Below are positions 6,984 to 40,788 of a stretch of DNA of 64,000 bases, piece after piece. Under the pieces are notes generated by a model, which saw nothing but the letters and a program-made list of their open reading frames with translations, was not told where the DNA came from and did not search any database. Made by a program: the position numbers and the translations under genes. Every line of letters starts with the position of its first letter. Position 1 is the first letter of the stretch. Source of the stretch: a virus; IMG/VR virus record IMGVR_UViG_3300006752_004097, positions 1 through 64,000 of that record, one strand, 5' to 3'.

Positions 6984-7000
6984 GATATCTCCTTGTAACC

Positions 7001-17616: not shown

Positions 17617-19701
17617 TTATACCGCAGAACTTACTCCGCTGGTATAAACCCAGGCACCACCAGTTACAGTACATGTTAATACGTATCTGTCAACTGTTAG
17701 TGAAACCGATCCTGTTACGTCACTAAACTGTACATCTTTTAGTACGGTCTCGTTTTCCTGCCCTGTTTCTGTTACCCTCGATACACTCGCACTATCCGCT
17801 GTATATGTACCAACTTCACTGCTTGTATCTAAGTTTATCTCTATTTCTGTTGAACTTACAATCCTATTAATAGCATATGTACCATTAATCGCTGTAACTC
17901 CCAATGCACCTGTAATTGTTACATTACGGCCTGCATCATAGCCATGAACTGCATCTAATGTTAAGATGGTTAATACACCTTTAGTAATAGACGCAACTGT
18001 TCTTGTTGCTACTGTAACTGTTTTATCAACTGCTACTGTAGTTTCATCTAATCCTGTATTCAATGCACTTGCTGTTAGTGTAGCACTTGCTGATGTTTGA
18101 TCAGTTGCATGAATTTTTGCTTGTGTTCCGTTTACCTTTGTACTTGCTGGAACAATCTCTTCAAGTAGTGTAACAAGTTTAGCACCAAAGGCCGCTCCGC
18201 CTCCTGCGCCTGCATTGTAACCTAAGCCTGTAATGTTAAGTGCCATTGCAACGCCTTCGCCGTCAATAGCAGTATCTACATAATTTTTAGTTGCCGCATC
18301 TGTGCCTGCAACTGGCTCACCTAATCCTGAAATCTTATTAGTGTTAAGTATTTCAATAACACCTGTTGCTCCTTCAAGTTGTAGGTTACCTACTCCTGTT
18401 GAAACTTTTTGTCCGTCAACACTAACATTATCAACATCTAATGATGTAAGTGTTCCAAGTGTTTGCATTTGTGGAGCACTTGTAATTGTTCCTAATGTTG
18501 TACCTGATATAACTGTGTTACCGTTAATCTTATAACCTGCTGTTGAGTCAAAAAATACATTTGATGTAAATGCGTTTGTTGCAAGTTTCCAAATAAATTC
18601 TTTATCGTCTGGTGTTGCTTTAACAATAATACCTGCATCATTAACATCTGCATCTGGTAATACTGTACTATCACTTGTAATAGCAAGTTCAATATTTTTA
18701 TCTTTAATTCTTAAGTTTTCAACATCTGTGCTAAAAGTGTCACCACTAACAGTTAAGTTACCGTCAATTTTAACATCGCCGCCAACGTCAAGTGTTGCTG
18801 TAGGTGTTCCTTTGAAAATACCTGCGTAACTATTTGTAGTATCAATTTTAATTGCTGAAGTTGCACCACTTGCTTTTCTTACTTGGATATCTAAATTTCT
18901 ATCTCTAACTTGGTTTGCAATAACTGTTTGGTTTGCAACAATACCAATGTTAATATTATCTTCTGGTCCTACTGTAATACCACCATTGTTAATTGTACTA
19001 ATAGTACCATTTGAAGTTGCGTTAGCATCAGTAGGCATAAACTGTGATGCGTTTTTCTTAACGCCTTGTGCGTTAATAATTGTATCTGCTGAAGTTGCTG
19101 TTCCGTGAAACTTAAAGTCATCATCAATTACATTAATACCTTTTTCAACTGCGCCAACTATTCCTGTAATAGGATTTGCCGCATTAGGTGTAAATCTAAT
19201 ATTTGAAAGTATTGCTTCTTTTTGTCCGCCAACGTTTAAGTTAACAAGTGTTCTGTTTGACTGTGTTGTATCTAAAACTGTTTCAGTTGTAAAACCTGAT
19301 GTTCCTTCTGATGTTGCAAAGTCAGGACCAACAAGTACTAAGTCTGTTCCGTCAAAGAAATATAACTTATTGTTTTGATTGTCAATCCAAAGATCGCCTG
19401 TAACCATTTGTGGTTGTGTAGGACTTACAATTGGACCGCCTGCACTTTTAAATTGTGCGCCATCATATAATTTTAATCTTGCTTCGCCACTGTCATACCA
19501 TAATTGACCTGTAAGTGGATTTGCTGGTGCTTGTGTGTTAGTAAAGTTTTCAAGCATCTTAACAAAGTTTTCGTTAATGCTTTCGCCAAAGCCTGAATAG
19601 TTTCTACCAACTAATGAAATATCAGTTGTTTGTGTGTTTAATTGTCCGTCAACTAAATTTACAAGTAAGTCGCCGTTTGTTTTATTAATCTGATACGCCA
19701 T
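17617..19701 (-). CDS. Tail-fibre-like protein with shared N-terminal module
   Basis: The 694-residue protein has the same N-terminal module as its neighbours (INKTNGD, LVGRNYSGFGE, NENFVKMLENF, GQLWYD, LKLYDG, NNKLYFFDG, LVGPDF). After a middle part with DVGGDVKIDGNLTVSGD, a typical fibre strand repeat, comes TDAATKNYVDTAIDGEG, a sequence often found before the distal part of phage fibres, and then a beta-rich end with GYNAGAGGG. The start codon shares one base with the stop of the gene upstream (TAATG). A fibre or adhesin role is inferred from architecture and place. Confidence 0.6.
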   Translation of the reverse strand: MAYQINKTNGDLLVNLVDGQLNTQTTDISLVGRNYSGFGESINENFVKMLENFTNTQAPANPLTGQLWYDSGEARLKLYDGAQFKSAGGPIVSPTQPQMVTGDLWIDNQNNKLYFFDGTDLVLVGPDFATSEGTSGFTTETVLDTTQSNRTLVNLNVGGQKEAILSNIRFTPNAANPITGIVGAVEKGINVIDDDFKFHGTATSADTIINAQGVKKNASQFMPTDANATSNGTISTINNGGITVGPEDNINIGIVANQTVIANQVRDRNLDIQVRKASGATSAIKIDTTNSYAGIFKGTPTATLDVGGDVKIDGNLTVSGDTFSTDVENLRIKDKNIELAITSDSTVLPDADVNDAGIIVKATPDDKEFIWKLATNAFTSNVFFDSTAGYKINGNTVISGTTLGTITSAPQMQTLGTLTSLDVDNVSVDGQKVSTGVGNLQLEGATGVIEILNTNKISGLGEPVAGTDAATKNYVDTAIDGEGVAMALNITGLGYNAGAGGGAAFGAKLVTLLEEIVPASTKVNGTQAKIHATDQTSASATLTASALNTGLDETTVAVDKTVTVATRTVASITKGVLTILTLDAVHGYDAGRNVTITGALGVTAINGTYAINRIVSSTEIEINLDTSSEVGTYTADSASVSRVTETGQENETVLKDVQFSDVTGSVSLTVDRYVLTCTVTGGAWVYTSGVSSAV

Positions 19702-21764
19702 TATTTCGCCCCCGCATAAATTAGATAGTTCATTGCCAAGTACGGATTCATTACATTAAAGTCTTGCCCGACTGCTGTATTGCTTACCACTCCTCCTGAG
19801 AATGGAAACTTTTGTCCTGCATCTGTACCTTGCGGTGCATCTGCTACTGTAGCATCACCATCTACTGGTGTACCTTGTACATCTCTTGTTGCGTAATATT
19901 GTGTACCACTTGGTCCACGTAAATCATGTTCGTGTTCTGGTAGTTCATCAACTGCAATTGGTTTCTTCTCAACACCTGCTGTACCACCCATTGTATCAGC
20001 GTTTTCATCTGTAACTCTGTTTGCTGGTCCTTGTGATGTTGCCATGTTGTCCATACCAAGTGGAAATCTACCACGTAAGTCTGGTAAAGCAAATTTACCT
20101 AATGCAGGATTTGCTTTGAATGATGTACCAATAATTTCATGTAGTTCTGGCCAATCAACAATAAACACTTCACTACCATCACATAGTAACCAACCGTTCA
20201 AGTCTAAGACTGATGTTGCACTACCCGCATATGGTGTAATCATTCCAATTGGGTTAACAGGTAAAGCACTAAACAAGTTACTTCTTGATAGTTTCTTAAT
20301 ACCTGTTCCACTACCGTTTTCATCGTTAACTCTGTTAACAAGGAATTCGTCATCAAATCTTGATGTTGGAACTGATGTTTTATTTGTAATGAATGTACTG
20401 TTAATACTAATGTCAAAGTTTTTAACAAGTGTTGTTTCGCCTGGCGCACTATATTGTCCGTCAAAGATAACTGGCGGTGCTGTTACATCACCTGTAACTT
20501 GGAACGTTGTTCTTGAAGCAAGTTTATCTGAACTTCCTGAACGTCCTGTAACTGTTCCAGTTACGTTACCAACCAAGTTAGCCTTTACTGTGTTTGCATT
20601 AATTTCTGCAAACTTTAATGTTGTGCTACCAATATTAACTGAGTTTGTAGAATCTGGTAATACTGTACCACCTAATGTAGTTGTACCACCTACTTCTAAA
20701 CTGTTTCCAATTCTTGCACTCTTGGCAATACCAATACCACCTGTTGTAGTAATTGCGCCTGTTCCAGTGTTAACTGCTTCTGCAATTCCATTAATAACAA
20801 GGTTGTTACTAACAATAGCATTACCTGTTACGTCTAATGCTTCTGCTGGTGATAAGTTGTTAATACCAACTTTTTGTGTTGAATCAATTCTTAATACAGG
20901 TTGTAAATTTCCTGCGTTGTTAATACGTAAGTCAATGTTAGCGCCTGATGTATTATTTGAAATAATAGCATTCTGTCCTTCAATACCTATTTGAACAACA
21001 GCATCACTACCAATGCTAACACCTGTGTTATTTTTAATTTGTAAACTTGAATTTGAAATACTTGCAACGTCACCTCTTAAAAAGTTTGATGCCGCTACTG
21101 TGGTTGCGCCTACAATTAAGTTTTCTGCTTTCTCTGATACACCATAGTATTTTCCTACGCCTGCACCTGTAATGTCTGCTGAACTTAAATTAAATCCTGG
21201 ACTTACTGTTTGAAATCCTTGAATAGTTGCTTTAGGAGTAAATGCACTTGTTGAATAAATTGCAACAACCTTACCGCCTATTTCAACTTGTAATGCTGTG
21301 TAATTAATATTGTCAGTACCAGTTAGTGTAGTAGGTCTAACACCTGCCGCTAATCCGTCACTGAACTCTGGTCCTACTAAGATCCAACCTGAACCTGTAA
21401 ACAAATATAACTGTTGGTTGTCTGTGTCTGTCCACAAGTCACCTGCTACTGAATTTGCTACGTCTGGTGCTGAGTCGCCACGCTTTAATCCGCCGGCTTC
21501 AATCCAGTTAGTACCATCGTAAATTTTAAGAATGTTAACACCAACTGCTGTGTCATACCATAGTTGGCCTTCAATTGGTCTATCTGGTGCTGTACTATTA
21601 CTAAAGTTTTCTAATAGTTGTAAAAAGTTTTGTCCAATTAACGCACCGTAGTCTGTTGTAAATCTACCTGGAATTTGTAATGTAGTAGAAGTATCGGTGG
21701 TGTTATCCTCGATAGCAATACTACCCTTATTCGTAATGTCGGTATAGTTAATAGTATATGCCAT
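19701..21764 (-). CDS. Tail fibre protein with C-terminal phage tail collar domain
   Basis: The 687-residue protein begins with the shared module (INYTDIT, GQNFLQLLENF, GQLWYD, LKIYDG, NQQLYLFTG, LVGPEF), continues with fibre-like repeats (LDVTGNAIVSNNLVING and similar), and ends with a tail collar domain. That domain has PIGMITPYAG, LNGWLLCDGSE, FALPDLRGRFPLGMD, VDELPEHEHDLRG and FNVMNPYLAMNYLIYAG, all standard for the family found in T4 gp12 and related fibres. The protein probably forms a trimeric fibre at the baseplate. GAGGGATAATAG precedes the ATG. Of the three paralogues it is the only one with this domain. Confidence 0.75.
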   Translation of the reverse strand: MAYTINYTDITNKGSIAIEDNTTDTSTTLQIPGRFTTDYGALIGQNFLQLLENFSNSTAPDRPIEGQLWYDTAVGVNILKIYDGTNWIEAGGLKRGDSAPDVANSVAGDLWTDTDNQQLYLFTGSGWILVGPEFSDGLAAGVRPTTLTGTDNINYTALQVEIGGKVVAIYSTSAFTPKATIQGFQTVSPGFNLSSADITGAGVGKYYGVSEKAENLIVGATTVAASNFLRGDVASISNSSLQIKNNTGVSIGSDAVVQIGIEGQNAIISNNTSGANIDLRINNAGNLQPVLRIDSTQKVGINNLSPAEALDVTGNAIVSNNLVINGIAEAVNTGTGAITTTGGIGIAKSARIGNSLEVGGTTTLGGTVLPDSTNSVNIGSTTLKFAEINANTVKANLVGNVTGTVTGRSGSSDKLASRTTFQVTGDVTAPPVIFDGQYSAPGETTLVKNFDISINSTFITNKTSVPTSRFDDEFLVNRVNDENGSGTGIKKLSRSNLFSALPVNPIGMITPYAGSATSVLDLNGWLLCDGSEVFIVDWPELHEIIGTSFKANPALGKFALPDLRGRFPLGMDNMATSQGPANRVTDENADTMGGTAGVEKKPIAVDELPEHEHDLRGPSGTQYYATRDVQGTPVDGDATVADAPQGTDAGQKFPFSGGVVSNTAVGQDFNVMNPYLAMNYLIYAGAK

Positions 21765-22398: not shown

Positions 22399-22406
22399 GT
22401 ATTTAT
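22399..22406 (-). promoter_or_regulatory. Late promoter box before the tail-fibre genes
   Basis: ATAAATAC on the minus strand overlaps the stop codon of the giant gene and lies 17 bp before the ATG at 22382, with GTAGGAAAC in between. It shares an ACA(A/T)TGTA continuation with the box at 40807-40814. Confidence 0.65.
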
Positions 22407-25400
22407 TTAGGTAAGTCAACCTCTTCAGCTCTTAAGAACTGTGCTATTGCATTTTTTGTCTTTCCTAACGTTTTTCCTGAATCATTCCAAGTTTTACCAA
22501 CTTTTCTGACTACTGTTACCCTAACACCATCCGCTGGTGCTGTTATTAGTGTTAATATATTGCCAGAAACACTAAATTCTGCTGGTGCTGTAATATCGCC
22601 TTCTGGACTGTCTTGAGCAACTGTTGCATCAAACATTGCAATATCACGTTTTCGTAGACGTTTACCGCCTGCGAACACTTCAAATTCGTCAACACCTTTA
22701 GTAGGTGTCCAATCTAATGAGTATTCTGTTGAACTTCCATCACCAATATACGTGTTAATTAGTGTTTTGTCCTGGTAAGGAACAGTTTGTTGGAAACCTT
22801 GATCAAAGATTTCATCACCTGTTTCGTGCATATCTTTAACTCCAGTACCAAATGTACCTCTACGTAACTGTGTTAAACTGTTACTATCCTTAACCATATA
22901 CTCAATACGCTCACCATTAATGAAAATAACGCCTGGTGTATTTGTAGTTTTATCTGGAACAAACATACTATCTGGGTTATCTACTATAATTTCTTTATCA
23001 AATGGTTTGAGGTCTTGTACTAATCTATATTTATTATTATCTCCAAGACGTTTGTACACTGTTCTGTTAAGCATATCCTTAAATACTCTCCAACCAAACT
23101 TTTTAACTGTTGGACCTGTTTCAGCGAACTGTATAATCTCAATAATATCATTTGCTGTTAATGGTTGTGCCATTCTTACAAATAAACGATCGTCTGTAAC
23201 TTTGTAATCAACACTTGGCGTTTGTAACTTGCCGTTAATAACAATCCAAACATATTCAGCATCAAGTGTTTGTCTTTCAAGTTTAATTAGACCTGCAAGT
23301 AAATGATTGTATTCAATATCTGCCGCACTTTCAAAGTCAACAGTAGTTCTTGTAATAATATCGTAATTCTTACGATCAATCTCTTGTACATCGTGTTTAC
23401 TAAAGTGTGTAACTTTGATTGTAGTATCTATTGCTGGTACAGTATCTAATGTTAGTATGTTGTCAGTAATTGTATAATCGCCATCTGTTGTTACAAATAT
23501 ATCAAGTTTGTCGCCTGCTTGTGCAACATTCTCAAAAATTTCAACACTTGAGTTAGCAGGACGGAAAATAAAGTCTGAAGTATATGTTAATGCATTACCG
23601 TTAAGCAATACAATAATATCATCAGCACCTAATGTACCGCCTGGTTGTTGCCAGTTACGTAATTGATATTCTACTCTGCTGTCAATAGTAAATGATTCGT
23701 TATAACCTGCATTAAGAATATTATCGCCAACTCTTACAATTATATTATGACTTGCAGGTAAACTACTAAATGGTGTTGTGCTTAATTCATAACTTGCACT
23801 ACTTCCATCAGCAATCAAGTTATCTGTTTTAATTTCACTAAATGTTTGTGCTTCACTTGCATAAATTGCAAAGTTAATTACTGCGTCATTGCCAGGTGCT
23901 ACACCAAATGTTATTGCAACTTTGTTTGCAGTATCATAAGAACTATCAGTTGTTTCTAAAACGTAATCAGGTTTTTCGCCGTCAACGGTTACAATACTAT
24001 TTAAGTCTTCTCTCCAGTCAACACTTGTAACAAACTGTATTGTTGAACCATCACCTCGGAATTGGTCTAAGTCAAGAATCTTATCACCGTTACCACTCAT
24101 TGAAAGTATATTAACTCTTTCGTTAAGTGCTGGTGCACTTGCCATTGTAATAGTTTTGTTTTTGTAATCAACTGTGTAAGTGGATTGTAATTTAATTATG
24201 TTATTAACTTTTACTAACAATGCATCTTTAGACTGTGGTATGCCGTTATAAGCAAATACCGTAGTTGAATTATCGCCAACGTATGCAACACTTTCAATAA
24301 CACTTGCGCCACTTCCAACCCTATCGTAAATTTTCATATCAAGAGTATCTAATACTTGTCCTGGAATTTGTTCTTCAGGACCTTTACTTGTTAACTGTGT
24401 TACAAAGCCGTCACCGTCAATGTTAATATCTTCTGGATTAATACCTGTTGCACTTGCATATGCTAAGTCGCCACCTTGTACTAATGTATCGTATGCTCTT
24501 GGATCAGGTACAAACGAACCGTCACTTGTATTTTTTCTAAATATTAATACATCGTCAGCACCCGGACTGTTAATACCGTTAATATCTAATCCATCATTGT
24601 CAAGGAAGATAGTTTGTGTTGTACCATCACCTGTTAGTGTTGTAGTCCTTGCGTTTGGATTAGTTGGATTGCTTGGATAATTCGGATCATCAATTCTTGT
24701 ACCATTCAAGTAAACATTATATTCAACACCATTTTCTAATGGCTTAGAAAGTGTTACACTAATTGAACTTCCGTCTAAACGTATTACTTCATCTTCGTAT
24801 GTATTATCGTATGAATCATAAGCGCCTGTGAACCAACCTTCTGTTCCCCAACCAGAGCCGCCACCAAAGTCGAAACTCTTAACTTGAACGCCACCGTAAT
24901 CAATACCGTCCATTAACTGTCCAAGATCGTTTGCTAACTGTCCTGTAGTTGGATTGTAGAATAAGTTAATTCTATCTTGTGCAGTTAGTAATGAAATTTC
25001 TTTCTTATAATCAATTGATATATTACTGTTATTAGCCGGAGGTGTTGTAAATGTTATTTGTCCTATGCTACGATTATGTGTTCTACCTACACTATCAGTA
25101 ATATTTGAAACTGTATAACCACTTGGTAATACTTCAATACCGTCTACCATTACTGATACTTGATCGGATTTAACATCCATTGGCCATTTCAGTTTAAAGT
25201 TATACTTGCCACCTGTGCCTACAAACGTTTCTGTTTCTGCAAGTGTTGTAATAAAGAACGTTCCTGTTACTCTATCAAACTTAACAGTCATGTGTGTAGT
25301 TCTTAGGTTTGAGTTGCCTATAATTGCACTTGCTTTACCAACTGTGCCACCGTCTGCTACTGTACCGTTAAGTACTATTGTGGGTGCGGACACATACCCC

Positions 25401-28400
25401 TGGCCCGCATTGTCTATTTTAATTTCTGTAATTTTTCCACCACCAACGTATGCTGTTGCTTTGGCTCCTGTTCCGCCACCGCCAACAAACTCTACACCCG
25501 GTGCATTTTCATATCCTGTACCTGCATCAAAAATATCTACTGATTTGATATTAAAACTTGCATTGTCTTTCCAATGCTTACCTGGATAAGTGTCTAAAGG
25601 TAATGCTGATTGTAATTGATCGTCAACTACTCTAACTGTCTGTGGAATAATTTTTCCTGCAACATCGCTGTATACTGGAGGTAAATCAAAGTCAGTAACC
25701 ATAGATGATGCTGTGTCTTTACCTTCGTATGTACTTAGGTATTCTCTAATCTTAGATTTATATGGTTTAACTTCTTTTACATATTCTTCATAACTTTCTA
25801 AGAAGTCATTATTAAATGTAATATCTTTTCTTAGTGAACCAATATTATGTTTTGCTTTGATAAACGATGTTTTAAACATCCAATCAACAAATTTTTGTTC
25901 TGATAAAATGTAACGCATTTGTGCAAAGAACAATTTATTGTAATCAATAGCAAGTTCGTCAACAAATATTTTATCTCTTAATGCTTTTAAGATAATACGC
26001 ATTTCATCAATTGGTTGTAAGTCAAATGCACTGTCGTCATAACCAAATGAATCGTAACCAATTAGTTCTCCGCTGTAATCATACAGTGACTTATCTAATT
26101 CTATTGTTGCATTTTGTCTACCAATAGTTTTATAGTTAACTGTATAGTCTACATTTGCTTGTGAATCTACTTTTTCTAACAGTAACCAACCGCCTGAGCC
26201 AACATTATTAATCTTAACAATACTACCAAACGTGTCTTGTAGTGATTCTAACTTATAAGTTTCGTCAATAACATAGTCTGCTTTTGTTAAAGAATTATAA
26301 CCTGTAGCATACCAGTCAATGTAACTCCAATAAGGTTGTACATCATATCTTTGACTCTTAATTCTATTCCAAATTACTGTACCGCCAACATATTCATATA
26401 ATGACCATTTGTTTTCGTATGTTGTGTCAGTTGTTGTAAGAACTGTAAATGGTCTTATTCTAATAGTATCTGTTTGTGCATAGTTAGTACCACTTTTAAC
26501 AACTGTTGCACCTGTAATCTGTCCTACGTTGTTCATTGTAAGAGTAACTTCAGCCCCTGTACCTGATACTGTTGTAATTGCTACTGTTGGTACTGTTTTG
26601 TAACCGTATCCTTGTTCAGTAACGTCTGCTCTTAGCACTTGTCCGTCTTGAATTGTTAAACTAACTGTTGCTTGTTTAAGTCTACCTACTGGTACAAACT
26701 GTAATTCGCTATCATTGTCAATTTGTCTATCAAATTTTCTTGATGCTATTGTTGGAATAGGATCATTAGTTTCTAAATCACTTAAATCAAAGTCGTCAAT
26801 TAAGATTTTTTGTTTTAGTGAGATGTTAACTCGTTCAACAAGTTGTTTTAATGCTTCAATCCTGTTAACAAACATTGTTTGTCTTGGCTCATTAAGAATA
26901 CCGTACCTATCTTTTTCAGTTAACTCTCTGGCTGGTACTGGTCTTCCTTGCTCGTCAAATCCAATTAAACTATCAAACCATTTACGTTCTAAATCTGTTT
27001 TAGGAACACTTGTTTCTAACCCGTCTGTAATAATCTTGTATTGATTGTGTACATTTTTATCAGTTTCTTCAATATTCCAATATGCAAATTTAAGAATAGT
27101 GTCATCACCTGTAATAGAACTTTGTAAGTTATGTAATGTCCATTCGTTCTTATCAAGCATTGTTGCAAATTTTAGTCCTGCGCCTGATGGATCTCTAATT
27201 AACTCTTGTACATCAGCGGCACTAATTGTTCTTCCTGGTACATCTGGTGTTGTTTTCTTATTACGTACCCAGTAGTAATAATAAAGTGTAAATTTTTGTG
27301 CTTGGTCGTCATAAACACGTCTTGAACTATAAGCATTGTCGCCGTATTTCGATGTACCACTAATTCCTTCTGCTAATCCTGATTCAGTATCCGCTTGTTC
27401 GTCCCATTCACTTGGTAATAAATCACTTTCTACCCATTCGTAAATTTCAACTTCTGTTCCTGGGAACACTGAATTCATTGTATTACTTGTAGTGAAAATA
27501 TTTCCTGTGTTACTGTACGGATTAATAAATCTTACAGCATCAATATCCCACCATAATTTACCAACATTGTTTGTTGTGTCAAACATTGTTTCGTCTTTTA
27601 CAACTGTTGTATCAGTTGCTATATTATATGTTGAAGGATCATATGTTGTTTTAAATGTTAACTCTGTTTCAGCCGTTCCTGCAATTTTTCCTTGTGCTGG
27701 ATCAATGTAATCAAGATATTCAGTAACCTGATTTGTATTTTTATTGTATAAACTAATACCTTTAAATCTACTAAGGTCAACTAACGGTCTTTCAGCTCTA
27801 ATTTTTTCCCATAATTTAGTATTAGGAGTTGATCTATAATCTAATATAGTTCCTTTGCTGTCGTTATCATCTCTACTATATGTTGGTATACCAACATAAA
27901 TGTGGTTACCGTTGATGAACATTGTTCTACCAAAGTATAATGCTTTGCTATCTGCAAATTCTAACTTGTCTGCATACACATATCTGTTACCTAACAGTTC
28001 ATAAAGGAATACTTCACCAGTATCAATAAGTGATGTATTGAATAATGTAGTTCCGTTATCAAATGCTGTTATGCCGCCGTCAAATCCTGTAATACTTGTA
28101 AGGTCACCACCTGCTGAATGTACTGCAATTCTATCAGTTCCGTACTTAACAACTGATCCAAACTTCTCGTTTGCAATTCCTTGTGGACCAACCAAGTGTT
28201 GTACTTGTTGGAATGTACCATTAATGCTTTCGTAAATGAATACTGTACCTTGATTTACATAATCAGCACTATATTTAGGAGCACCTACTGCAACAAATCT
28301 ACCATCATTGGAAACTGTTACTGAACTTCCGTAGCCAATGCCGTCTGCGTATGCATCAATTACTTGACTGAATAAAAAGTGTCCTAATACTTTTCTATAA

Positions 28401-31400
28401 ATTGCTAACTTAGGTGTATTAATGGAACTATCTACAGCATCTCCGTACTTAACAATAGTTGCTAATACTTCTCCGTCACTGCTGATTCCAAATTGTGTAC
28501 CAAATTCATATAAATTATTATCTTGTATTGCACTGTCGTCACCAATAATAAAGCCTGTGTCGTTTGGTAAGTATCCATTCAGATCAAGACCTTCAGTGAT
28601 TGCTGTCCAATTAGATTCATTCCACGCACCTGCAATAATATTTGTTTGTGCTTGCCAAATTTGTTCAAGATATTTTACATACTCGCCGGTTTTATAAGTT
28701 ACAGTTGTACTGAAATCACCTTTGTAGTCTACATCTTGTCCTAAAATCCAACCTTTTGTTTTGTCGTATTTTATAACATTAATTCTACCTGGTTGTGCAA
28801 ACGTTCCGTTACCTTTGCTTAACAAGTATGCAGTATAAGTTCCATCATTGTGTGTAACCATTTCAACTGATGCACCTAAATGTCTACTACTTGCCGCATC
28901 TGGCATAATGTAAATGTTATGTAAATTATAGAAGTTACTTGCATTTCTTTCGTAGATAGCATATGCACCTTGTCTTGTTAATGCACTTGCTGTACCAGAT
29001 GAGTTTGCAGTAATATTGTAAACTCTTTCCCAGTCGTTATTAGTATTACCTGGAGGATTTGCATCTCTTGGAATACCTGACTGTTCTACACTGTCAAAAA
29101 TCCAGTATTCAAACCCTTGTAATGTTCTTGTTGAACCTGGTGTTAAGTTTGTTCCTCTATCTACAACAATAATTGGACCTGCTGTATTTGATTCTAAATG
29201 TCTTGTGTTAATTGTACCCATGAGTCTTACAACGCCTACGCCTTGTGACCCACCGTCAATGCTTATACTTGTAATGTCGCTGTTATCTGAACCAAACTTC
29301 CAAGTACCGTTAACATTTTTAACCCATAGTCTGCAAGTATTAAACAGTTTTTCTACTCCTGCAACTTCTGCCGTTGCAAGTGTGTCGTTGTCTTGTACTG
29401 TATCTCCAACAATAGGAATAAAAGGATTACCGTAATTAGGGTTGAAGTCAGCATCACCTGGTGTTGGCGAACCTCTATCATCAAATGCTGTAAGATTTAC
29501 TTCAATCCAACCGTTCCAAATATCATCAATAGTATGTTCTGTTCTGTTTAGATAGTCGTGTGTTATCTCTGGACTTATTACAGCCGGATCTTGAATTAAA
29601 TTATCAGCAGTTGCATATTCATTAAAGAAGAAGTTAAATGTATTTCCTATTACAAGACTACTTGTTAAAGTTGCTGGTGCTCTAAATACCCATTTGTCAG
29701 AAAGTACATTACCACTATCACCTAAGAATGATAAAGTTTCAATATAACTTGTTACTGTAGGATTCTGGTCTGTTAAATCATCTTGAATTCTAAGTGCATT
29801 TTCGTAATATTTTACACTACGTGATACACCTGTTTTAATAATGTCTTGAATAACAAGGTATGGTTTAGTTTCAATAGTAGTTGTTGAAGTGAAACTTGAA
29901 CTCGGTCCGTCAATTTGCCACCAACCGCCTAATACATTTTCTTCTTGTTGTACTGCTCTTTCAAATGCACCTATTTGAATATCACCAACAAATAATGTAC
30001 CTGTTGACTCAAACAATCCGTTTACATCTTTAACATAAATTAAACTTCTATTATCACCTGTAATGTTTACTTTAGTAACAACTGCAACTGCTGTTGCACT
30101 ACTAATTGTTTCTCCTACACTTGGAATAGCCTGTGTATTGTCAATTAATAATATATCATCAATTTTTTCTACAATAGCATGTTCGCCATCTAAAAACGCT
30201 TTAGTCATTAATGGATCATTGTTGAACGGTGTTACACCACCTGGATATCTTGTGTTAACATCATTCCATAGTAGTTGTAACTTATCACCTACTTCTGTTC
30301 CATCGTATTGTCCTTTAGGTGCTCTAATTAACATGTGATCTGTTAATTCTTCAGGGAAACTAAAATTACCTCTTAATATAAAGTATAAGTTGCTGTACAC
30401 ATTATTTTCTAATGTACTAACAAGTGCTTGTAAATGCGAGTTAAATGTTTGATATTCTAAACTTAAATCTTGTGGCTCAACTGTTGTTTTTGCTTTCCAG
30501 TACTGGTTTGTAAATTTTACAATATCTTGTTGTACGTAAGTGGTAGCACTATTAAAGTCGCCTTTGTAAAAGGACTTAACATTAGAAGCATACGGAATAC
30601 CAACAACTAACCATTTACCGTCTGTGGAAATATTTGTACTTTGACCGAAACTGTTTAACCCAGCAGTCATAAAGTCTGTTGGAGCCTCAAGTATTTGAGA
30701 TTGTACAGCCTTAAGATTTTCTGATGCTCTAAAGTAAATGTCTACTCTACCATTTGTTGAGTCTTCACTCGATGGTACACCAATTGGAATAATGCTGTTA
30801 GTTGCATTTGCACTAATACTTGTTCCAAAGTCTCTATCGTCAGTACCTAAAATACCTTCAATACTGTTACTAAACATTTGTTGCGTTTGTGCATATTTGT
30901 TTTTATTTTCTACAACTGCCCATCTGCCATTTTCGTCTTTGTCAACCCAAACTCTTTCGTTGTTGCTAACATTGTCTCTTGTAATTTTTTCATTAACGCC
31001 ATTAAGATCAGCAACCCTTACACTGTTTAACTGTGTAATGAATCCTGAAATCTCTGGTAAGTCTGGTTGTTCTACTGATGTTGTAGCAAAGATAGTATTA
31101 AGACTTGTTCTTTGAACTTTAAAGAATCTATCTACATCACCTGTACCAAGCACACTAATAATATCGTCTTTTACGAACGGAGGTGCTTTACCTGTTGTAA
31201 TCTCTATCATACCCGAACTATCCGAGTTTACAATAGAACTTACTTTGAATGGTGTTTCAGTTTGGCGCAAGACATCCCATGTTTGGCCTTTTTTAGCAAC
31301 CCAAATATATTTTCCTACATCTATTGTGTTAGGATCAAGTCCAAGTATATCATCATAGTTTGTAACTTTAAATTCAGCATCTGCGTCAGCAACATAACCT

Positions 31401-34400
31401 GCTGTCTTGATATATGAATCATCTTCCGGAATATATTTTGTTGGGAACGGAGCATGATCGTAATCGTCTGGTTTACTGTATACCTCTGATGGCTCATATC
31501 TGTAAACAAGATCAGTTAACAACGGATCAATGCTTGGTACTAATTGAAACGGTTGTGGACTTAATCTAAACTTGCCTTCGTCCAGTTTATATTCAATTTC
31601 TTCAAAGCCACCGTTGGCTCCATATTGGCCAACTTTAAATGCCCACTCTTCAAAAAATTCTAAACTTGAGTTTTCTGTATTTGATAAAGCATCAAACAAT
31701 TTACTTAATGAATTTACTGTTCCTTTATCTTGGATATATCCTTGATAGAATTTGTACTGTGAAACATCATCATTAATAATGTTTTCAATATACTTACGTT
31801 TCTGATAACCTGTTAAGTGTTGTGCAATTCGTTGCTGTTCACTGTCAAAGTTATCTGTATCTAAATCATAAAAGTCTGCAAATTGATTTGCTTTATAATC
31901 TAAGTTTGGTACAAGTTCTGCTGTAGGTTTTTCAGGTAATTTATACCAGTCTGTTTCATCAAAGTTTGTAGAACCTGGAATTTTATATTTTGCACTATAA
32001 TAAAATGTTTTATATAGAACTACTGAAGCAATATCATAATCTACATTTTCTTCCCAATCTTTACACACAACATTATCGTATGTAAACCCAGGAATATTTA
32101 AACCACCATTCCAATCAGTACTTCTGTAACCTAATATTTTAATACGTGCTTGTCTGTATCCAGGACCTGGATTATAAATTGTGTCATTGAATACTGTTAC
32201 GTTGTCAATTAAACAAACATGTTCTTTTTGTACAAGTGGTAATTTTAAAAAGTAAATTCCGTCAGCAGTGTTTTTAAGTTTTAATCCAAAATTGTTTTGA
32301 TTACTACGTAATGTATTTGTAAATTCTTCTTTAAGTTTGCCGCCGTCTGCTTTTAATAACGTATAGTCATAAAAGTTATCAAAGATATTATCTACTACTG
32401 AATATGGTCTGCTAAACTGTAGATTAATAGCACTTGGACTTAGAGTAAGTAATGCTCCTTCACTCCAGTTTTGTGTAGTCCAGAATAAAAATTCTCTTGC
32501 ACTTAATTCCCAGTTTTCAATTGTTTCAAGTTCTCTATTAAATCCACTAAAGTCAAAGCCTTGTTTTATTAAGTACTGTTCGTAACCTAATATAAAGTCA
32601 ATAACGTCTTGAGTAGTTCTTAGCATTGTACCGTAATTCAATTTACTTGGAGTACTGTCAAATGCTCGTCTTAGAATTCCTTCTCTGCCACCTTCCATTG
32701 GAAGTTCAGCAAGTTTAACAAAATTTTCATCTGTAATAGTTTGGAAACTTCCTGAATTTTGTACACGGAAAAAGTTAGTAGAAACTCGTATAATTTGTCC
32801 TGCTTGGTAACGTTCTCCTGGTACCCATTCTAAGAAGTTTTCACTAACACCACCTACGTTAACAACTGGGTCAGCGGAACGTTCAATGTGTTTGTAATAG
32901 TCAAAGTATGGTTTGCTTTTGTCATAACCTTTAACAACAAATCCTGCTGTACGTTTTTCAATAATTACACCACTGTAAGAAACAGTGTCAACTGGAGAAC
33001 TTGTGTTTAGAATAATTTTATAATTTTCTTCTGGTACAAAAACGTTTCCTTTATTATTAGGAGTTCTTGAATCAAGTAATAACTTGAATTTATCTTTTTC
33101 AGTAAAGCCACCTATCTTAAATCCAAGTTGTACTTTAAGGCTCTTAATGTTCTCTTTATACGCTTTGTTAAGTTTAGTTACGTCTGCATTAATATAGTTG
33201 AAAATATAGTTAATTAGACCCGCTGTAGTTACACGAGTAGTATCATCTACGGTGTTAGGGAATACTAAATTCTTAGGTTCTAAACGTTTTTCACTTGACG
33301 AATAAACAATGCCGCCTGCTGGGTTACGTTTAATTCTTGCTCTATCAAATCCAACACCTATTACCTTAGCAGGTTGATGAATTAAAAATGCTGTTAGTAA
33401 TGCAAATGGATATTCTGCACTTCTGCGCCATGCAGTTTCTACAGGAGATTCGTCACCAAATACAAATGAGTTATTTGTTTCAGGAACAATAAGTCCTTGT
33501 GCATATCCACATTCATATGGACTTATTAAATTACCTTGTGTGTCTACAGGAATATATTTTGTTAAATCTTTTCTCTTATAATTTGTTTTGTATCTAATAG
33601 GATTATTAGGCTCACGTACTAAACCTTTCTCAAGGTCTTCCCAAAGAATTAAATTTTCTTTTGTGTACGGTGCTGGGCCATATACTGTTTCCCACCAAGT
33701 TGGTTGATCTATGTATCCTAAAACTTTCCATGGAGTTGTGTGCGGAGTATCTGTACTTAGATACTCTTTATAAATTGCTCTCCAATATCCTGGTAACGGT
33801 ATTCCGTCTGGATCAGACATTATAGAATAATTCCATGTAAATGAATTTGCTCTATCGTAGAATGATATATCTGTGTAGTCAGGATCACCTGCAATGCTTA
33901 ACCATTCAACAAAGTCAGTAATAGTAACTTCGTCTGCATCAAGTTTTGTAAATCCTGTGTCTCTTGTTTTATGCCCAAGGAAACTGTCAATATCAAATAT
34001 GTTAATATCGTAACTTACTTTAACATTGTTATAAATTCTTTTTTCAATTTCTAAAAGAATATCATCTCTATAATCTTCGTATGCTTTAGTAACACTACCA
34101 TCATGTCCTTTAATAAGCACACGCGGTGTACTATATGTGTTGTCAGTAAATATTACTGGTTTGTGTAACGGATACAATCCTAACTTTGTTGGTGTAGGTG
34201 GAATAAACGAAGCATCTGTTGATTCGTATTCGTAAATTGTAATAGTGTCATCTATAGCAAGAACAAAATCATTAGTAATTTGAATAAAGCCTTCTGTTGT
34301 AAATGTATAATCTTGACCGTGTAACATCTGTACATTGTTGTGATATACATAAACTGCGTTAGCACTAATTGTTTTTAAGTCAAATGCTGTTGTTAAACTA

Positions 34401-37267
34401 TAAAATTTGTTGCCTGGATCTGTAACAGTAAATTCACGCTTGTTATTAGCACCTGAACCAATCATGTCTGTCCAGTAAAATGCTGTTTGCTTTGATTTTT
34501 CAGACTGCCATTTCTCAATTACTTTATCAGTCAAGTATTGTGCTGATCCGTCTAAGCCTAATTTTTCTGAAATATCTACTACTGCTCTTTTAAATTTTGC
34601 ATATTCTTTTCTTGCAAATCTAAGTGCTTTTACAATATTATAATCTTTGTTTGTAATATGATACAATGATAACGGAATAGCACCCGAGTGCTGTACAAAT
34701 TTTGTACCAAGTTTTGCAAGTCCGCCTAAGTTACGTAAGTTACTTGGTCCTGGAAAAGATCCTTCAAACCCTTTAACGTTACTAATAATAGTGTTTACAT
34801 GATCAGTTACTTCACCATATGTAAAAGTAGTGATGTTTTCATTAAGTGGGTTATTCTGCAAGTTAATCGGAAACTCGTATTTTCCGTTTTCGTTTTTGTC
34901 TGCTTCACTTGTAGTATGGATTATTAAGTTATCGCCATTTTTTAGTGGAGTAACAAACTGTACATAAGCAATGCCGTTTTGTCTGTTTAATGACCAAGCA
35001 CTTTGTCTTACATTGTTTACAAATACTTGTACATCTAAATTATTTAAATCGCCACTTCTGTCATATACATCAATTGCAAAGGTATTGTTTTGTCCATCAA
35101 CTGTATACTGACGTATAACTTTTTGTATACTGTCTGTGTCTGCTTTTTCCCAACCACTTACATTTGTATAAGTGTTTAGTCCTGTATATTTTCTTAAAGT
35201 AGACGAATCTGTATTTTGTGTATAATCTTTTTGTCCAAGTTGATATGTAAAAGAGTCTGTTAACAAATCAAAGTTAAAAACAATATCTCCACTGTTTTCA
35301 ATATTTCTATAAGTTAACGGTATTCCTATTACAGGATCATTAGCACCTGTACCTTGTTTGTAACTAAACAAACAACTACCTGTAAATGTATTTGCATTAT
35401 ACGTATCAAAACTTACATCAGTGATATCATAAAGATTAAATTTAGGTTTTTGATTTGTTGTTAATTTGTCTTGTGCTTTGATCCACTTAGATCCATTGTA
35501 CCAGTAAATCTTACCTGAGTTTACTGTACCACCTGCAACTAATACTGTTTCATTTTCTAAAGGAGTAGTATCTGTTTCATCTTGCAACGCAATTTGTCTT
35601 TGACCGTTGTGTGTGATAAATTTTACTTTGTAAATTCTACCATTAACTCTGATGTCAGGATCTTTAGTAAACAATACACGCAGTCCTTCAGTAAGTTCAA
35701 CACCGTCAACGTTATAACCTTCACTGCCTTCAATAGTACTAAACACATCACCTGTAAAGTCGTCAATCAAATCAACGTTTGTTTTCTTCATACTACCAAA
35801 GTTATACAAACGTAACCCTGCATTAAATTCAATAATAGGACGTTTAGCACGTTGCGTTTGATCTAACGAAACTTCTGTACCATTTGCTATCGCAGTTTTT
35901 TCAATAGTGTCTTTGTGGAACCATCTGTTGTGTCTACTCCATTGGTTACCGTCAATACTTGCTCTATTGATTGTAATATAGTCTTGTTCTTTAGGATAGT
36001 TAAGTGCTTGACCAAAAGGTAACTTATCAAAGTTTTCTGCATCAAATGGTACAAATATATTTGAACTATATGCTCCAGTAATTTCAAGATCTGCTTTGTT
36101 GATTAGTTGTATAGATTCACCAACACCTTCAACATACCAATATCCTTCGCTGTACTTTGCTGGTGTTACATCACCTAAAAACTCTACTAACATACCATTG
36201 GATAAATCAGTATCTGTTCTTGTTGTGTAAGTTAACTTTTGTAGAATTTCTTTTTCTACATCTATCTCTGTATTTTCTAAAATATTATAAAGTGTAACTA
36301 AGCCTGATGTGTTTACATCATTTTGACTGATATAAAATAATGTATCAGGTGCATCAAGTGGCACTGTAAATTTAAGTGTGCCTTTTTCTACATACACTGT
36401 TGCTGATTCTACACCGTCGGTATATAATGTAGAGATATTATCTCCGTCCTTGAATCCAGTTATACCGCCTTCGACAGGCTCTACTATGTATTCACCTGTG
36501 TCGTAGCCATCGGTGTCATATAATTCTGCTTCAAACTTACCAGATGCCAACACACCTTCAACTGTCTCAGTTATAATCGCTTGTCCTGGAGTAAATGCTC
36601 TATTGGTTGCAAATGCTATTGGGTGTCCAGGTGTATCAATCTCGAATATGTAAGTTTGACCTTTGTAAAGTTTTAGAGTAGGATTTTGTGTTAAACCTGT
36701 TGGGGTAAATTTATACGCTACATTGTCATCATTCTCCTCCACGGATACTTTAAAAGTAGATACAATTTCTTTGTTCTGTCCAAAGATAGGTAATACTTGT
36801 GGTCCTGCTGGAAGCCAATAGTATTCTCTAAAGTTTGTAAACTTATCCCAATCAATATGTGGTTGCCACGCATAATATTCTTGTGCGTTAATTTTACTAT
36901 GATCAGGATTTCTATTACCAAACGCTCTTAGTTGGTTTATGTAATCATTATAGTCTTTGTAAAAGTCAACATTGTCTGCGTTGTCTTTTAAAACAACTGC
37001 TGGTTCTAATTGGTAATTTTGTCTATCGTCTGAAACGTCACTAATATAGTTGTCTGTTGACTGAACTGCTTTTGCGTCTCTACGCCCATAGTATGAATTA
37101 AGTTTTTCAACTTCTCCTGGATTCATAAACTGATCCAGTGTGCTTGTTAAAAACTTTTTATTCGCTGGTGTTCTAAAATACTTAGGTAAGTGACTTACAC
37201 TTGTTCGATTCTCGCTATCGTCGTTTGGACCAATTGGAATATCATTCTGGTCATTATCGTAAGCCAT
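22403..37267 (-). CDS. Giant baseplate/tail structural protein (gene 7 position)
   Basis: The single open frame encodes 4,954 residues, about a quarter of the window. It directly follows gene 6 (TAATG junction, GGAGGTTAC ribosome site), where T4 has the 1,032-residue gp7, so a wedge or wedge-periphery role is likely; homology to gp7 is not shown. The N-terminus (YYGRRDAKAVQ, YYAWQPHIDWDKFTNFREYYWLP) is a type seen in marine T4-like phages. FG-GAP-like repeats lie near residues 2146, 2206, 2797, 2922, 2978, 3038 and 3109. Carbohydrate-binding-like modules lie near 1481, 1736, 2231 and 2846. GxGY...P repeats lie near 3552 and 3914. The end contains IFINGERIEYM and LRRGTFGTG. No transmembrane segment or frameshift was seen. 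Confidence 0.75.
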   Translation of the reverse strand: MAYDNDQNDIPIGPNDDSENRTSVSHLPKYFRTPANKKFLTSTLDQFMNPGEVEKLNSYYGRRDAKAVQSTDNYISDVSDDRQNYQLEPAVVLKDNADNVDFYKDYNDYINQLRAFGNRNPDHSKINAQEYYAWQPHIDWDKFTNFREYYWLPAGPQVLPIFGQNKEIVSTFKVSVEENDDNVAYKFTPTGLTQNPTLKLYKGQTYIFEIDTPGHPIAFATNRAFTPGQAIITETVEGVLASGKFEAELYDTDGYDTGEYIVEPVEGGITGFKDGDNISTLYTDGVESATVYVEKGTLKFTVPLDAPDTLFYISQNDVNTSGLVTLYNILENTEIDVEKEILQKLTYTTRTDTDLSNGMLVEFLGDVTPAKYSEGYWYVEGVGESIQLINKADLEITGAYSSNIFVPFDAENFDKLPFGQALNYPKEQDYITINRASIDGNQWSRHNRWFHKDTIEKTAIANGTEVSLDQTQRAKRPIIEFNAGLRLYNFGSMKKTNVDLIDDFTGDVFSTIEGSEGYNVDGVELTEGLRVLFTKDPDIRVNGRIYKVKFITHNGQRQIALQDETDTTPLENETVLVAGGTVNSGKIYWYNGSKWIKAQDKLTTNQKPKFNLYDITDVSFDTYNANTFTGSCLFSYKQGTGANDPVIGIPLTYRNIENSGDIVFNFDLLTDSFTYQLGQKDYTQNTDSSTLRKYTGLNTYTNVSGWEKADTDSIQKVIRQYTVDGQNNTFAIDVYDRSGDLNNLDVQVFVNNVRQSAWSLNRQNGIAYVQFVTPLKNGDNLIIHTTSEADKNENGKYEFPINLQNNPLNENITTFTYGEVTDHVNTIISNVKGFEGSFPGPSNLRNLGGLAKLGTKFVQHSGAIPLSLYHITNKDYNIVKALRFARKEYAKFKRAVVDISEKLGLDGSAQYLTDKVIEKWQSEKSKQTAFYWTDMIGSGANNKREFTVTDPGNKFYSLTTAFDLKTISANAVYVYHNNVQMLHGQDYTFTTEGFIQITNDFVLAIDDTITIYEYESTDASFIPPTPTKLGLYPLHKPVIFTDNTYSTPRVLIKGHDGSVTKAYEDYRDDILLEIEKRIYNNVKVSYDINIFDIDSFLGHKTRDTGFTKLDADEVTITDFVEWLSIAGDPDYTDISFYDRANSFTWNYSIMSDPDGIPLPGYWRAIYKEYLSTDTPHTTPWKVLGYIDQPTWWETVYGPAPYTKENLILWEDLEKGLVREPNNPIRYKTNYKRKDLTKYIPVDTQGNLISPYECGYAQGLIVPETNNSFVFGDESPVETAWRRSAEYPFALLTAFLIHQPAKVIGVGFDRARIKRNPAGGIVYSSSEKRLEPKNLVFPNTVDDTTRVTTAGLINYIFNYINADVTKLNKAYKENIKSLKVQLGFKIGGFTEKDKFKLLLDSRTPNNKGNVFVPEENYKIILNTSSPVDTVSYSGVIIEKRTAGFVVKGYDKSKPYFDYYKHIERSADPVVNVGGVSENFLEWVPGERYQAGQIIRVSTNFFRVQNSGSFQTITDENFVKLAELPMEGGREGILRRAFDSTPSKLNYGTMLRTTQDVIDFILGYEQYLIKQGFDFSGFNRELETIENWELSAREFLFWTTQNWSEGALLTLSPSAINLQFSRPYSVVDNIFDNFYDYTLLKADGGKLKEEFTNTLRSNQNNFGLKLKNTADGIYFLKLPLVQKEHVCLIDNVTVFNDTIYNPGPGYRQARIKILGYRSTDWNGGLNIPGFTYDNVVCKDWEENVDYDIASVVLYKTFYYSAKYKIPGSTNFDETDWYKLPEKPTAELVPNLDYKANQFADFYDLDTDNFDSEQQRIAQHLTGYQKRKYIENIINDDVSQYKFYQGYIQDKGTVNSLSKLFDALSNTENSSLEFFEEWAFKVGQYGANGGFEEIEYKLDEGKFRLSPQPFQLVPSIDPLLTDLVYRYEPSEVYSKPDDYDHAPFPTKYIPEDDSYIKTAGYVADADAEFKVTNYDDILGLDPNTIDVGKYIWVAKKGQTWDVLRQTETPFKVSSIVNSDSSGMIEITTGKAPPFVKDDIISVLGTGDVDRFFKVQRTSLNTIFATTSVEQPDLPEISGFITQLNSVRVADLNGVNEKITRDNVSNNERVWVDKDENGRWAVVENKNKYAQTQQMFSNSIEGILGTDDRDFGTSISANATNSIIPIGVPSSEDSTNGRVDIYFRASENLKAVQSQILEAPTDFMTAGLNSFGQSTNISTDGKWLVVGIPYASNVKSFYKGDFNSATTYVQQDIVKFTNQYWKAKTTVEPQDLSLEYQTFNSHLQALVSTLENNVYSNLYFILRGNFSFPEELTDHMLIRAPKGQYDGTEVGDKLQLLWNDVNTRYPGGVTPFNNDPLMTKAFLDGEHAIVEKIDDILLIDNTQAIPSVGETISSATAVAVVTKVNITGDNRSLIYVKDVNGLFESTGTLFVGDIQIGAFERAVQQEENVLGGWWQIDGPSSSFTSTTTIETKPYLVIQDIIKTGVSRSVKYYENALRIQDDLTDQNPTVTSYIETLSFLGDSGNVLSDKWVFRAPATLTSSLVIGNTFNFFFNEYATADNLIQDPAVISPEITHDYLNRTEHTIDDIWNGWIEVNLTAFDDRGSPTPGDADFNPNYGNPFIPIVGDTVQDNDTLATAEVAGVEKLFNTCRLWVKNVNGTWKFGSDNSDITSISIDGGSQGVGVVRLMGTINTRHLESNTAGPIIVVDRGTNLTPGSTRTLQGFEYWIFDSVEQSGIPRDANPPGNTNNDWERVYNITANSSGTASALTRQGAYAIYERNASNFYNLHNIYIMPDAASSRHLGASVEMVTHNDGTYTAYLLSKGNGTFAQPGRINVIKYDKTKGWILGQDVDYKGDFSTTVTYKTGEYVKYLEQIWQAQTNIIAGAWNESNWTAITEGLDLNGYLPNDTGFIIGDDSAIQDNNLYEFGTQFGISSDGEVLATIVKYGDAVDSSINTPKLAIYRKVLGHFLFSQVIDAYADGIGYGSSVTVSNDGRFVAVGAPKYSADYVNQGTVFIYESINGTFQQVQHLVGPQGIANEKFGSVVKYGTDRIAVHSAGGDLTSITGFDGGITAFDNGTTLFNTSLIDTGEVFLYELLGNRYVYADKLEFADSKALYFGRTMFINGNHIYVGIPTYSRDDNDSKGTILDYRSTPNTKLWEKIRAERPLVDLSRFKGISLYNKNTNQVTEYLDYIDPAQGKIAGTAETELTFKTTYDPSTYNIATDTTVVKDETMFDTTNNVGKLWWDIDAVRFINPYSNTGNIFTTSNTMNSVFPGTEVEIYEWVESDLLPSEWDEQADTESGLAEGISGTSKYGDNAYSSRRVYDDQAQKFTLYYYYWVRNKKTTPDVPGRTISAADVQELIRDPSGAGLKFATMLDKNEWTLHNLQSSITGDDTILKFAYWNIEETDKNVHNQYKIITDGLETSVPKTDLERKWFDSLIGFDEQGRPVPARELTEKDRYGILNEPRQTMFVNRIEALKQLVERVNISLKQKILIDDFDLSDLETNDPIPTIASRKFDRQIDNDSELQFVPVGRLKQATVSLTIQDGQVLRADVTEQGYGYKTVPTVAITTVSGTGAEVTLTMNNVGQITGATVVKSGTNYAQTDTIRIRPFTVLTTTDTTYENKWSLYEYVGGTVIWNRIKSQRYDVQPYWSYIDWYATGYNSLTKADYVIDETYKLESLQDTFGSIVKINNVGSGGWLLLEKVDSQANVDYTVNYKTIGRQNATIELDKSLYDYSGELIGYDSFGYDDSAFDLQPIDEMRIILKALRDKIFVDELAIDYNKLFFAQMRYILSEQKFVDWMFKTSFIKAKHNIGSLRKDITFNNDFLESYEEYVKEVKPYKSKIREYLSTYEGKDTASSMVTDFDLPPVYSDVAGKIIPQTVRVVDDQLQSALPLDTYPGKHWKDNASFNIKSVDIFDAGTGYENAPGVEFVGGGGTGAKATAYVGGGKITEIKIDNAGQGYVSAPTIVLNGTVADGGTVGKASAIIGNSNLRTTHMTVKFDRVTGTFFITTLAETETFVGTGGKYNFKLKWPMDVKSDQVSVMVDGIEVLPSGYTVSNITDSVGRTHNRSIGQITFTTPPANNSNISIDYKKEISLLTAQDRINLFYNPTTGQLANDLGQLMDGIDYGGVQVKSFDFGGGSGWGTEGWFTGAYDSYDNTYEDEVIRLDGSSISVTLSKPLENGVEYNVYLNGTRIDDPNYPSNPTNPNARTTTLTGDGTTQTIFLDNDGLDINGINSPGADDVLIFRKNTSDGSFVPDPRAYDTLVQGGDLAYASATGINPEDINIDGDGFVTQLTSKGPEEQIPGQVLDTLDMKIYDRVGSGASVIESVAYVGDNSTTVFAYNGIPQSKDALLVKVNNIIKLQSTYTVDYKNKTITMASAPALNERVNILSMSGNGDKILDLDQFRGDGSTIQFVTSVDWREDLNSIVTVDGEKPDYVLETTDSSYDTANKVAITFGVAPGNDAVINFAIYASEAQTFSEIKTDNLIADGSSASYELSTTPFSSLPASHNIIVRVGDNILNAGYNESFTIDSRVEYQLRNWQQPGGTLGADDIIVLLNGNALTYTSDFIFRPANSSVEIFENVAQAGDKLDIFVTTDGDYTITDNILTLDTVPAIDTTIKVTHFSKHDVQEIDRKNYDIITRTTVDFESAADIEYNHLLAGLIKLERQTLDAEYVWIVINGKLQTPSVDYKVTDDRLFVRMAQPLTANDIIEIIQFAETGPTVKKFGWRVFKDMLNRTVYKRLGDNNKYRLVQDLKPFDKEIIVDNPDSMFVPDKTTNTPGVIFINGERIEYMVKDSNSLTQLRRGTFGTGVKDMHETGDEIFDQGFQQTVPYQDKTLINTYIGDGSSTEYSLDWTPTKGVDEFEVFAGGKRLRKRDIAMFDATVAQDSPEGDITAPAEFSVSGNILTLITAPADGVRVTVVRKVGKTWNDSGKTLGKTKNAIAQFLRAEEVDLPK

Positions 37268-40200: not shown

Positions 40201-40788
40201 TAAGTTTGTGTTTGATGCATTGAAACGATATTGCTCAGTTGTAATACCTGCAATAGTTTCTTTCTTTACTGGCTTACCTACAATACTGTTTTCTGGTAAT
40301 GCCGCATTTAAAATTTTTCTAAACTGTTCTGCCCAATCAGGATTTGATGGATCGTTCCATTGTATAGATTGTCCTGATAAGTTAACACCATTAGTGTCTT
40401 GAATTTCTTCTGTTGTTTGTACACTTTCAAACTTCATTAATCCGTTTGCTGATTGGTTACGCTTTGGATTATAAGAAAGTAAACGTGCTAAACGTAATAC
40501 GCTTTCTCTACGTTCTGCTAATTCAAGGAAGTTTTCACGTGCATTTAAATCAACACGGAATGCCATGTTTTGTCCAAGATATGCAATAAGATCAATTAGT
40601 GCAAGGTATTCTGAACTTTCAATGTAATCATTAAAGTCTTCTGGATAGTTCTCACGCAAATATGCGATCATAGTTCTGCGTAAACTATCAAAATCATACG
40701 ATTTGAAGTCCGCAGTTTTAAATGTTTGATATACTCGCTTCCAATCTTCAGCAAGTAATAATCTATTTTGTCTATCCGTTGTTGACAT
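37267..40788 (-). CDS. 6: Baseplate wedge protein gp6
   Basis: The N-terminal 200 residues are typical of T4 gp6: LRENYPEDFNDYIESSEYLALIDLIAYLGQNMAFRVDLNARENFLELAERRESVLRLARLLSY. At 1,173 residues it is much longer than T4 gp6 (660) but similar in design to marine relatives. gp6 forms the inner ring that joins the baseplate wedges. The centre contains GVRYIFESDKEVKFYFDE and a DSDGDGVVDNPSLFDDF stretch that could bind calcium. The C-terminus is an unusual low-complexity tail of about 35 residues, almost all Ser and Thr, ending GGY. A late box (40807-40814) and AAGAGGAAAATAG precede the ATG. Confidence 0.9.
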   Translation of the reverse strand: MSTTDRQNRLLLAEDWKRVYQTFKTADFKSYDFDSLRRTMIAYLRENYPEDFNDYIESSEYLALIDLIAYLGQNMAFRVDLNARENFLELAERRESVLRLARLLSYNPKRNQSANGLMKFESVQTTEEIQDTNGVNLSGQSIQWNDPSNPDWAEQFRKILNAALPENSIVGKPVKKETIAGITTEQYRFNASNTNLPVYSFNKNVGEKNIVFEVTSSTIDANKIYEEDPLPGNSLAFLYREDGKGAGSSNSGYFVHFRQGILDTGNFSIENPTTNQAVAIDTTNINNSDVWLYQLDSNGNETKLWTKVEATEGNNVIYNSVNKQNRSLYAVQSRIDDRISLLFADGTFGDLPKGQFRCYFRKGLGSKFAIQPEELTNVTISVPYTSRAGTPETFTFVCSLKYTVDNASGPETSKSIKENAPSTYYTQNRMITGEDYNVAPRAVSQEVVKVKSINRTSSGISRYFDLIDSTGKYSSTNIFGNDGVIYKDVFDKKLSFSFNTKTDVEGNIQNVITPLLSNNVIKNFFLNQFPKISTADLAADWTQVAKQTNNSSGYISDSLDIKLTVGTFTGSTLKFVEPGAMVKFVAPAGQHFMKDNSHALMAGDADHPGATTYIWTKVVRVNDKGTEDYEDGQGPIIFNDVIPTGAILDEVKPKFATNLTTDVTTQIIDQIFSYKTFGVRYSTTDREWRVILNNNLSIGNAFNMGKTGDTSGQNLDSSWLMLFETDGEKYTVTYRGVRYIFESDKEVKFYFDETDRIYDSRTGQVIRDKINLMSINKKPDSVSPATIDYPWQVTKEFRDDEGYINSKKVEVGFFDSDGDGVVDNPSLFDDFVAQDTNSLTKWVFVKEKISNNQSTNYDYVDAAVENIRAFASETSTGALSQYDDGAIFYFVDNNVFKVYSKANANLTLQTGYKAYQGRDKLVFQYVHSADENNRLDPSSSNIIDTYLLTKTYDRSFRQYLANTITTKPLPPSSDELFQNFGAEINKIKSISDEVIYHPVNYKILFGDKADSDLQATFKVVKNSEVITNDNDVKLRIVQAINEFFALEFWDFGDKFSFTELSTYIVNVLAPDITTLVLVPNQSEKAFGSLYEVSTENDEIFISGATVDNVEIIDSLTASRLKTTGSVVSTATTENAGITSSANTSTTSSSTTTSTSTSSSSSSSSSSSSSSGGY

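Follow-up and report, generated by a model that had tools for sequence, protein, structure and literature searches.

The window analysed here is a stretch of 64,000 nucleotides from a virus contig of 69.6 kb, and one open reading frame on its minus strand (22403-37267) encodes a giant virion or baseplate protein of 4954 aa. The phrog_10938 profile matches this reading frame with 1055 bits, and the gene sits in a cluster of baseplate genes. Immediately upstream, and overlapping it by one base, is the gene for a gp6-like baseplate wedge protein (37267-40788, minus strand; phrog_10646), and a gp5-like hub/tail lysozyme is encoded at 41299-42843 (minus strand; phrog_13211). The giant protein has two conserved cores. 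Core 1 (residues ~430-1935; 31463-35980, minus strand) is shared with the giants of RaK2, PBECO4, PA5oct, Atu_ph07, Phosso and SCTP-2, and core 2 (residues ~3152-3860; 25688-27814, minus strand) is likewise shared with isolated jumbo phages. Identity of the cores to the six named giants is mostly 23-37%, and the annotation of the PA5oct homologue records that mass spectrometry found it in the virion. On the strength of this homology, the 4954-aa protein is a giant virion protein related to those of RaK2/PA5oct-type jumbo phages. The best explanation of the locus is that it belongs to an uncultivated, jumbo-type, contractile-tailed phage and that the giant is a baseplate-wedge protein. When the profile of the core was compared with the PDB, chitin-binding modules were the sole matches, and profile comparison of the core with T4 baseplate proteins gave no homology signal. 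Three radical-SAM proteins are encoded near the tail genes (417-1415, 3370-4359 and 10138-11505, minus strand), as is a UDP-glucose dehydrogenase (5799-7004); in Atu_ph07 and Phosso, too, radical-SAM genes follow downstream of the gene for the giant.

Between core 1 with its linker and core 2 lies a region (residues ~2127-3150; 27818-30889, minus strand) which, judging from structure predictions, almost certainly folds as a seven-bladed FG-GAP propeller with nested insertions. The first-pass annotation had picked out seven FG-GAP-like strings here, all of which are found in the reading frame, with residue numbers that had been off by 0-3: FGTSIS (2147), FGQSTNIS (2207), LGASVEM (2797), FGTQFGIS (2922), YGSSVTVS (2979), FGSVVKYG (3036) and FGRTMF (3112), together spanning 27917-30829 on the minus strand. 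The giant contains 56 [FYL]G dipeptides, and a loose FG...GAP expression gave six overlapping matches to four distinct motifs, a result reached in 14 of 500 shuffles. Short motifs by themselves are only mildly enriched in the giant, and bare strings of this kind prove little. The F/YG...G(V/I/A)P pattern is complete in blades 1, 2, 5 and 7 of the window, and blades 3, 4 and 6 have FG or LG without the proline. No DxDxDG calcium loop occurs in any window blade; in the two alignments the few matches of this type are located N-terminal to blade 1 or, in a single relative (L135), near the C-terminal end.

Profile methods are more informative. A blade HMM built from relatives only scored 22.0 bits on blade 5, 19.1 on blade 1 and 7.3 on blade 4, with 200 shuffled versions of the giant reaching no more than 5.0 bits. 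In blade-versus-blade profile comparison, blade 5 was linked to blade 2 (93% probability), blade 4 (18%), blade 1 (16%), blade 7 (9%) and blade 6 (3%), with controls reaching at most 0.9%. Profile evidence is convincing for most of the repeats. Blade 3 showed no link to blade 5 in this comparison; it is evident in insert-free relatives such as L137 (FGYQVELQQDESGVTRLFVGAPG...GKIYVV). Pfam FG-GAP_2 (PF14312) matched 22 of 22 family members (best 1.5e-9) and all 39 members of a 39-row set, with 50.3 bits for L137 against a cut-off of 23, and on the window copy alone it was weak (0.04; 14.5 bits against the same cut-off). The absence of any PF01839 FG-GAP match in the whole record indicates that the repeats are of the PF14312 type. 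Searches with the region by tblastn against isolated phages, as a single sequence against the PDB and against NCBIfam gave no matches. The family profile of L137 retrieved integrins from the PDB by sequence alone (alpha-6, 5.7e-6).

AlphaFold2 modelling of residues 2100-3200 from an alignment of 22 homologues gave a model of 1101 residues of moderate confidence (pLDDT 64, pTM 0.50). Structural alignment of this model with integrin alpha-M extended over 351 residues (Z 31.1, rmsd 3.6) and spanned model residues 28-1048, and the best 50 matches were integrins without exception (50/50). DDB1 and other multi-propeller proteins came first in a Foldseek search with the 1101-residue model, with very large rmsd, and given the integrin alignment these were taken as length artefacts. 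L137 is a natural relative without the large insert (472 aa), and its model from the 39-row alignment is better determined (pLDDT 82.9, pTM 0.82); its matches are all integrins (Foldseek E 6.8e-13; structural alignment Z 32.6). The insert-free profile (A5) and the window profile (A2) match each other with an E-value of 8.5e-84. In DSSP assignments of the predicted models, blades 1-6 have four strands each and blade 7 has three plus an N-terminal strand, which aligns to integrin residue 1. The integrin matches of both models uphold the earlier proposal of a seven-bladed, integrin-type propeller.

The predicted N-terminal strand, inferred from the models and the integrin alignment to be the fourth of blade 7, occupies residues 2127-2146 (30830-30889; all features of the propeller are on the minus strand). 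Blade 1 (residues 2147-2195; 30683-30829) is placed by profile comparison, the model and the blade HMM. Blade 2 is split: strands A and B (residues 2207-2224; 30596-30649) are placed by profile comparison and the model, and strands C and D (residues 2767-2790; 28898-28969) by the model and the A5/A2 profile alignment. In the window model strand B of this blade ends at 2224 and strand C begins at 2767, whereas in L137 the two are joined by a short loop, which places a large insertion inside the blade. Model and alignments put this insertion in the B-C loop (residues 2225-2766, ~540 aa; 28970-30595). The first-pass annotation had expected structure prediction to reveal seven blades and a large inserted arm, both of which are present in the model; it had also noted correctly that motifs 2 and 3 stand far apart, but had read the gap of ~590 residues as an insert between blades 2 and 3, where it is blade 2 itself that is interrupted.

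The insert in blade 2 consists of a CBM5/12 (chitin-binding)-like module (residues 2230-2267; 30467-30580), which matches a second such module with 97.7% probability, followed by a tandemly duplicated arm. The arm repeats, I1 (residues 2288-2454; 29906-30406) and I2 (residues 2484-2751; 29015-29818), are related by profile comparison (probability 72%, E 3.4e-5), and the duplicated arm as a whole (29015-30406) matched no family and was not confidently folded in the window model. Blade 3 (residues 2797-2842; 28742-28879) is placed by the model and profile alignment and is clear in L137. Further inserts follow, namely the second CBM5/12-like module in the loop between blades 3 and 4 (residues 2844-2918; 28514-28738), identified by family and profile searches and the model, and a smaller B-C loop insertion within blade 6 (residues 3036-3104; 27956-28162; profile comparison and model). 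Blade 4 (residues 2919-2972; 28352-28513) is placed by profile comparison, the model and the blade HMM; blade 5 (residues 2979-3027; 28187-28333), the best FG-GAP repeat, by FG-GAP_2, profile comparison and the blade HMM; and strands A to C of blade 7 (residues 3112-3147; 27827-27934) by profile comparison and the model. The CBM5/12-like modules of the window protein score below the Pfam cut-off, and chitin-binding-like modules also occur in the core of the giant.

At six distant loci the two cores are separated by 218-233 aa and no propeller is present, compared with 643-1445 aa where there is one. The stretch at these empty sites is homologous to the window linker up to about residue 2126 (98.9%, E 1.3e-17) and then runs straight into core 2, and the propeller is thereby marked as a cleanly bounded domain insertion. 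These sequences are best explained if an entire propeller domain entered a loop in the conserved core of the giant; its clean loss in the empty-site lineages would account for them less simply. The propeller is present in 79 of 79 close uncultivated relatives and in 23 of the 69 more distant relatives that have both anchors. Chitin-binding-like repeats in other parts of the giant drew the core 1 anchor to a wrong position in many rows, and rows with negative gaps or gaps above 2000 aa were left out when empty sites were judged. None of the six isolated relatives examined has a propeller at the insertion site, and a propeller hidden in the giants of isolated relatives was looked for and not found. 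The large insert of blade 2 is missing or replaced in L096-L100, L105, L107, L134 and L137, with L134 and L105 carrying small modules only. Living lineages therefore display an empty site, a bare propeller, a propeller with small modules and a propeller with the arm. A GxGY-rich repeat matching phrog_460 (25253-25555, minus strand; giant residues ~3905-4005) lies elsewhere in the window protein, and GxGY-like repeats also occupy part of the insertion site in the Atu_ph07 and Phosso giants; found at different sites in different giants, this module seems to be mobile between sites.

No other large part of the giant changes as fast as the propeller, whose identities are ~57-66% where the core has ~71%, and 34-43% where the core has 50-58%. 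Faster change is as expected for an exposed domain. Hypervariability was considered as a sign of receptor binding and set aside, as the propeller diverges faster than the core yet is not hypervariable.

In propellers the B-C and D-A loops share one face, and closure of blade 7 by an N-terminal strand brings the two chain ends to the other; integrins bind ligands on the face bearing the B-C and D-A loops. By this general topology every insert should be directed away from where the propeller joins the baseplate. In the phage propeller the two chain ends, and hence the attachment, would share a face, and the opposite, ligand-type face would bear the three inserts (blade 2 B-C loop, blade 3-4 loop and blade 6 B-C loop). 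Most probably the propeller would then serve as a docking platform that faces outwards, with further copies presumably arranged around the baseplate, and would contact host-surface glycans during adsorption or tail positioning. Putative docking to the host surface is plausible for a baseplate protein with chitin-binding-like modules. The statement taken as a whole, that a nested-insert propeller in a baseplate giant serves as an outward platform for glycan docking, is the reading towards which we lean, by a modest degree of belief.

The main rival to glycan docking is that the propeller is an internal scaffold, a ring on which fibre-like proteins or neighbouring wedges dock and which makes no contact with the host. 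Downstream of the giant are three fibre-like genes (16105-17583, 17617-19701 and 19701-21764, minus strand), whose products have an N-terminal region of ~300 aa in common (about 32-39% identical) which suggests paralogues with a common mode of attachment. Such proteins need attachment sites, and they could be the real receptor-binding proteins; retention of the propeller in every close relative also fits a structural role, as does its only moderately faster evolution than the core. Yet in other lineages the site is empty or otherwise filled, so that a baseplate of this kind can do without the propeller, and the propeller carries chitin-binding-like modules. A purely internal role is possible but somewhat doubtful, and the data do not decisively separate it from glycan docking.

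Enzymatic trimming of surface polysaccharide by the propeller or its arm is improbable. Some propeller-bearing glycosidases and lyases have this activity, and chitin-binding-like modules often accompany carbohydrate enzymes, but family searches matched no enzyme family and the nearest structures are all non-enzymatic integrins. It is more improbable still, to the point of being scarcely credible, that the fold is no propeller and the repeats are short motifs that arose by chance. The mild enrichment in the shuffle test, the lack of a PF01839 match and a blade 3 that is unrecognised by sequence in the window would suit such a reading, which is contradicted at the level of prediction by the family profiles, the two structure predictions and the integrin matches. 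The predicted fold puts an integrin-type propeller within the structural core of a contractile tail, and the domain is a concrete candidate for the means by which uncultivated jumbo phages of marine and fresh waters make contact with their hosts. More tentatively, and with rather less conviction, the baseplate wedge protein of an uncultivated jumbo clade may have become an integrin-like adhesin, by capture of a propeller cassette at one loop followed by successive nested insertions on its ligand face, so that adhesion heads would ring the baseplate.

Among known systems, the phrog_10938 giants of jumbo phages resemble the window protein in their homologous cores and in a gene that likewise follows a gp6-like wedge gene; those of isolated phages differ in having ~220-410 or ~1500 aa of other sequence at the insertion site. 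The gene of the giant, like that of T4 gp7, comes straight after its gp6-like or gp6 neighbour and overlaps it; the giant is nearly five times longer than gp7, and profile comparison of the two gave no signal, in a setting where the gp6-gp6 control was itself weak (6%). Integrin-type propellers are familiar from the adhesion receptors of animals and the surface proteins of bacteria. As in the integrin alpha propeller, the phage domain has seven four-stranded blades, FG..GAP-type motifs, a large insert near blades 2 and 3 and an N-terminal strand that probably closes blade 7; unlike it, the blades have no DxDxDG calcium loops and the domain sits in a baseplate protein. In the strict definition, every integrin blade has an FG-GAP/Cage motif and there are DxDxDG calcium loops (PMC3192720; PMC8023676), the G and P stand at fixed places, the calcium loops lie between strands A and B of several blades, and the N-terminus supplies the fourth strand of blade 7 (PMC3192720). 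With calcium loops absent and the proline missing in three blades, the phage domain is an FG-GAP_2 propeller of integrin-like fold and not of the strict integrin type. Alpha-I integrins have an extra domain between repeats 2 and 3 (PMC4237329), but that domain is of the von Willebrand A type, for which no family match was found in the phage insert, and the phage insert lies in the blade 2 B-C loop. The parallel is striking but independent, involving a different loop and a different domain. A search of the literature on FG-GAP motifs or propellers and phage baseplates found no description of a propeller inside a baseplate wedge protein. Bacterial and viral propellers of Pfam FG-GAP_2 (PF14312), such as uncultured Caudovirales CAB4202542.1 and Phosso gp108, belong to the same repeat family, and viral members were the closest match among predicted viral structures, one of them in a phage tail module. 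Gp108 of Sinorhizobium phage Phosso (L157:7650-17092) is a separate giant whose 19 FG-GAP_2 repeats would suffice to build more than two propellers. These phage propellers are separate proteins, whereas the propeller described here is embedded, with its nested inserts, in a giant wedge protein.
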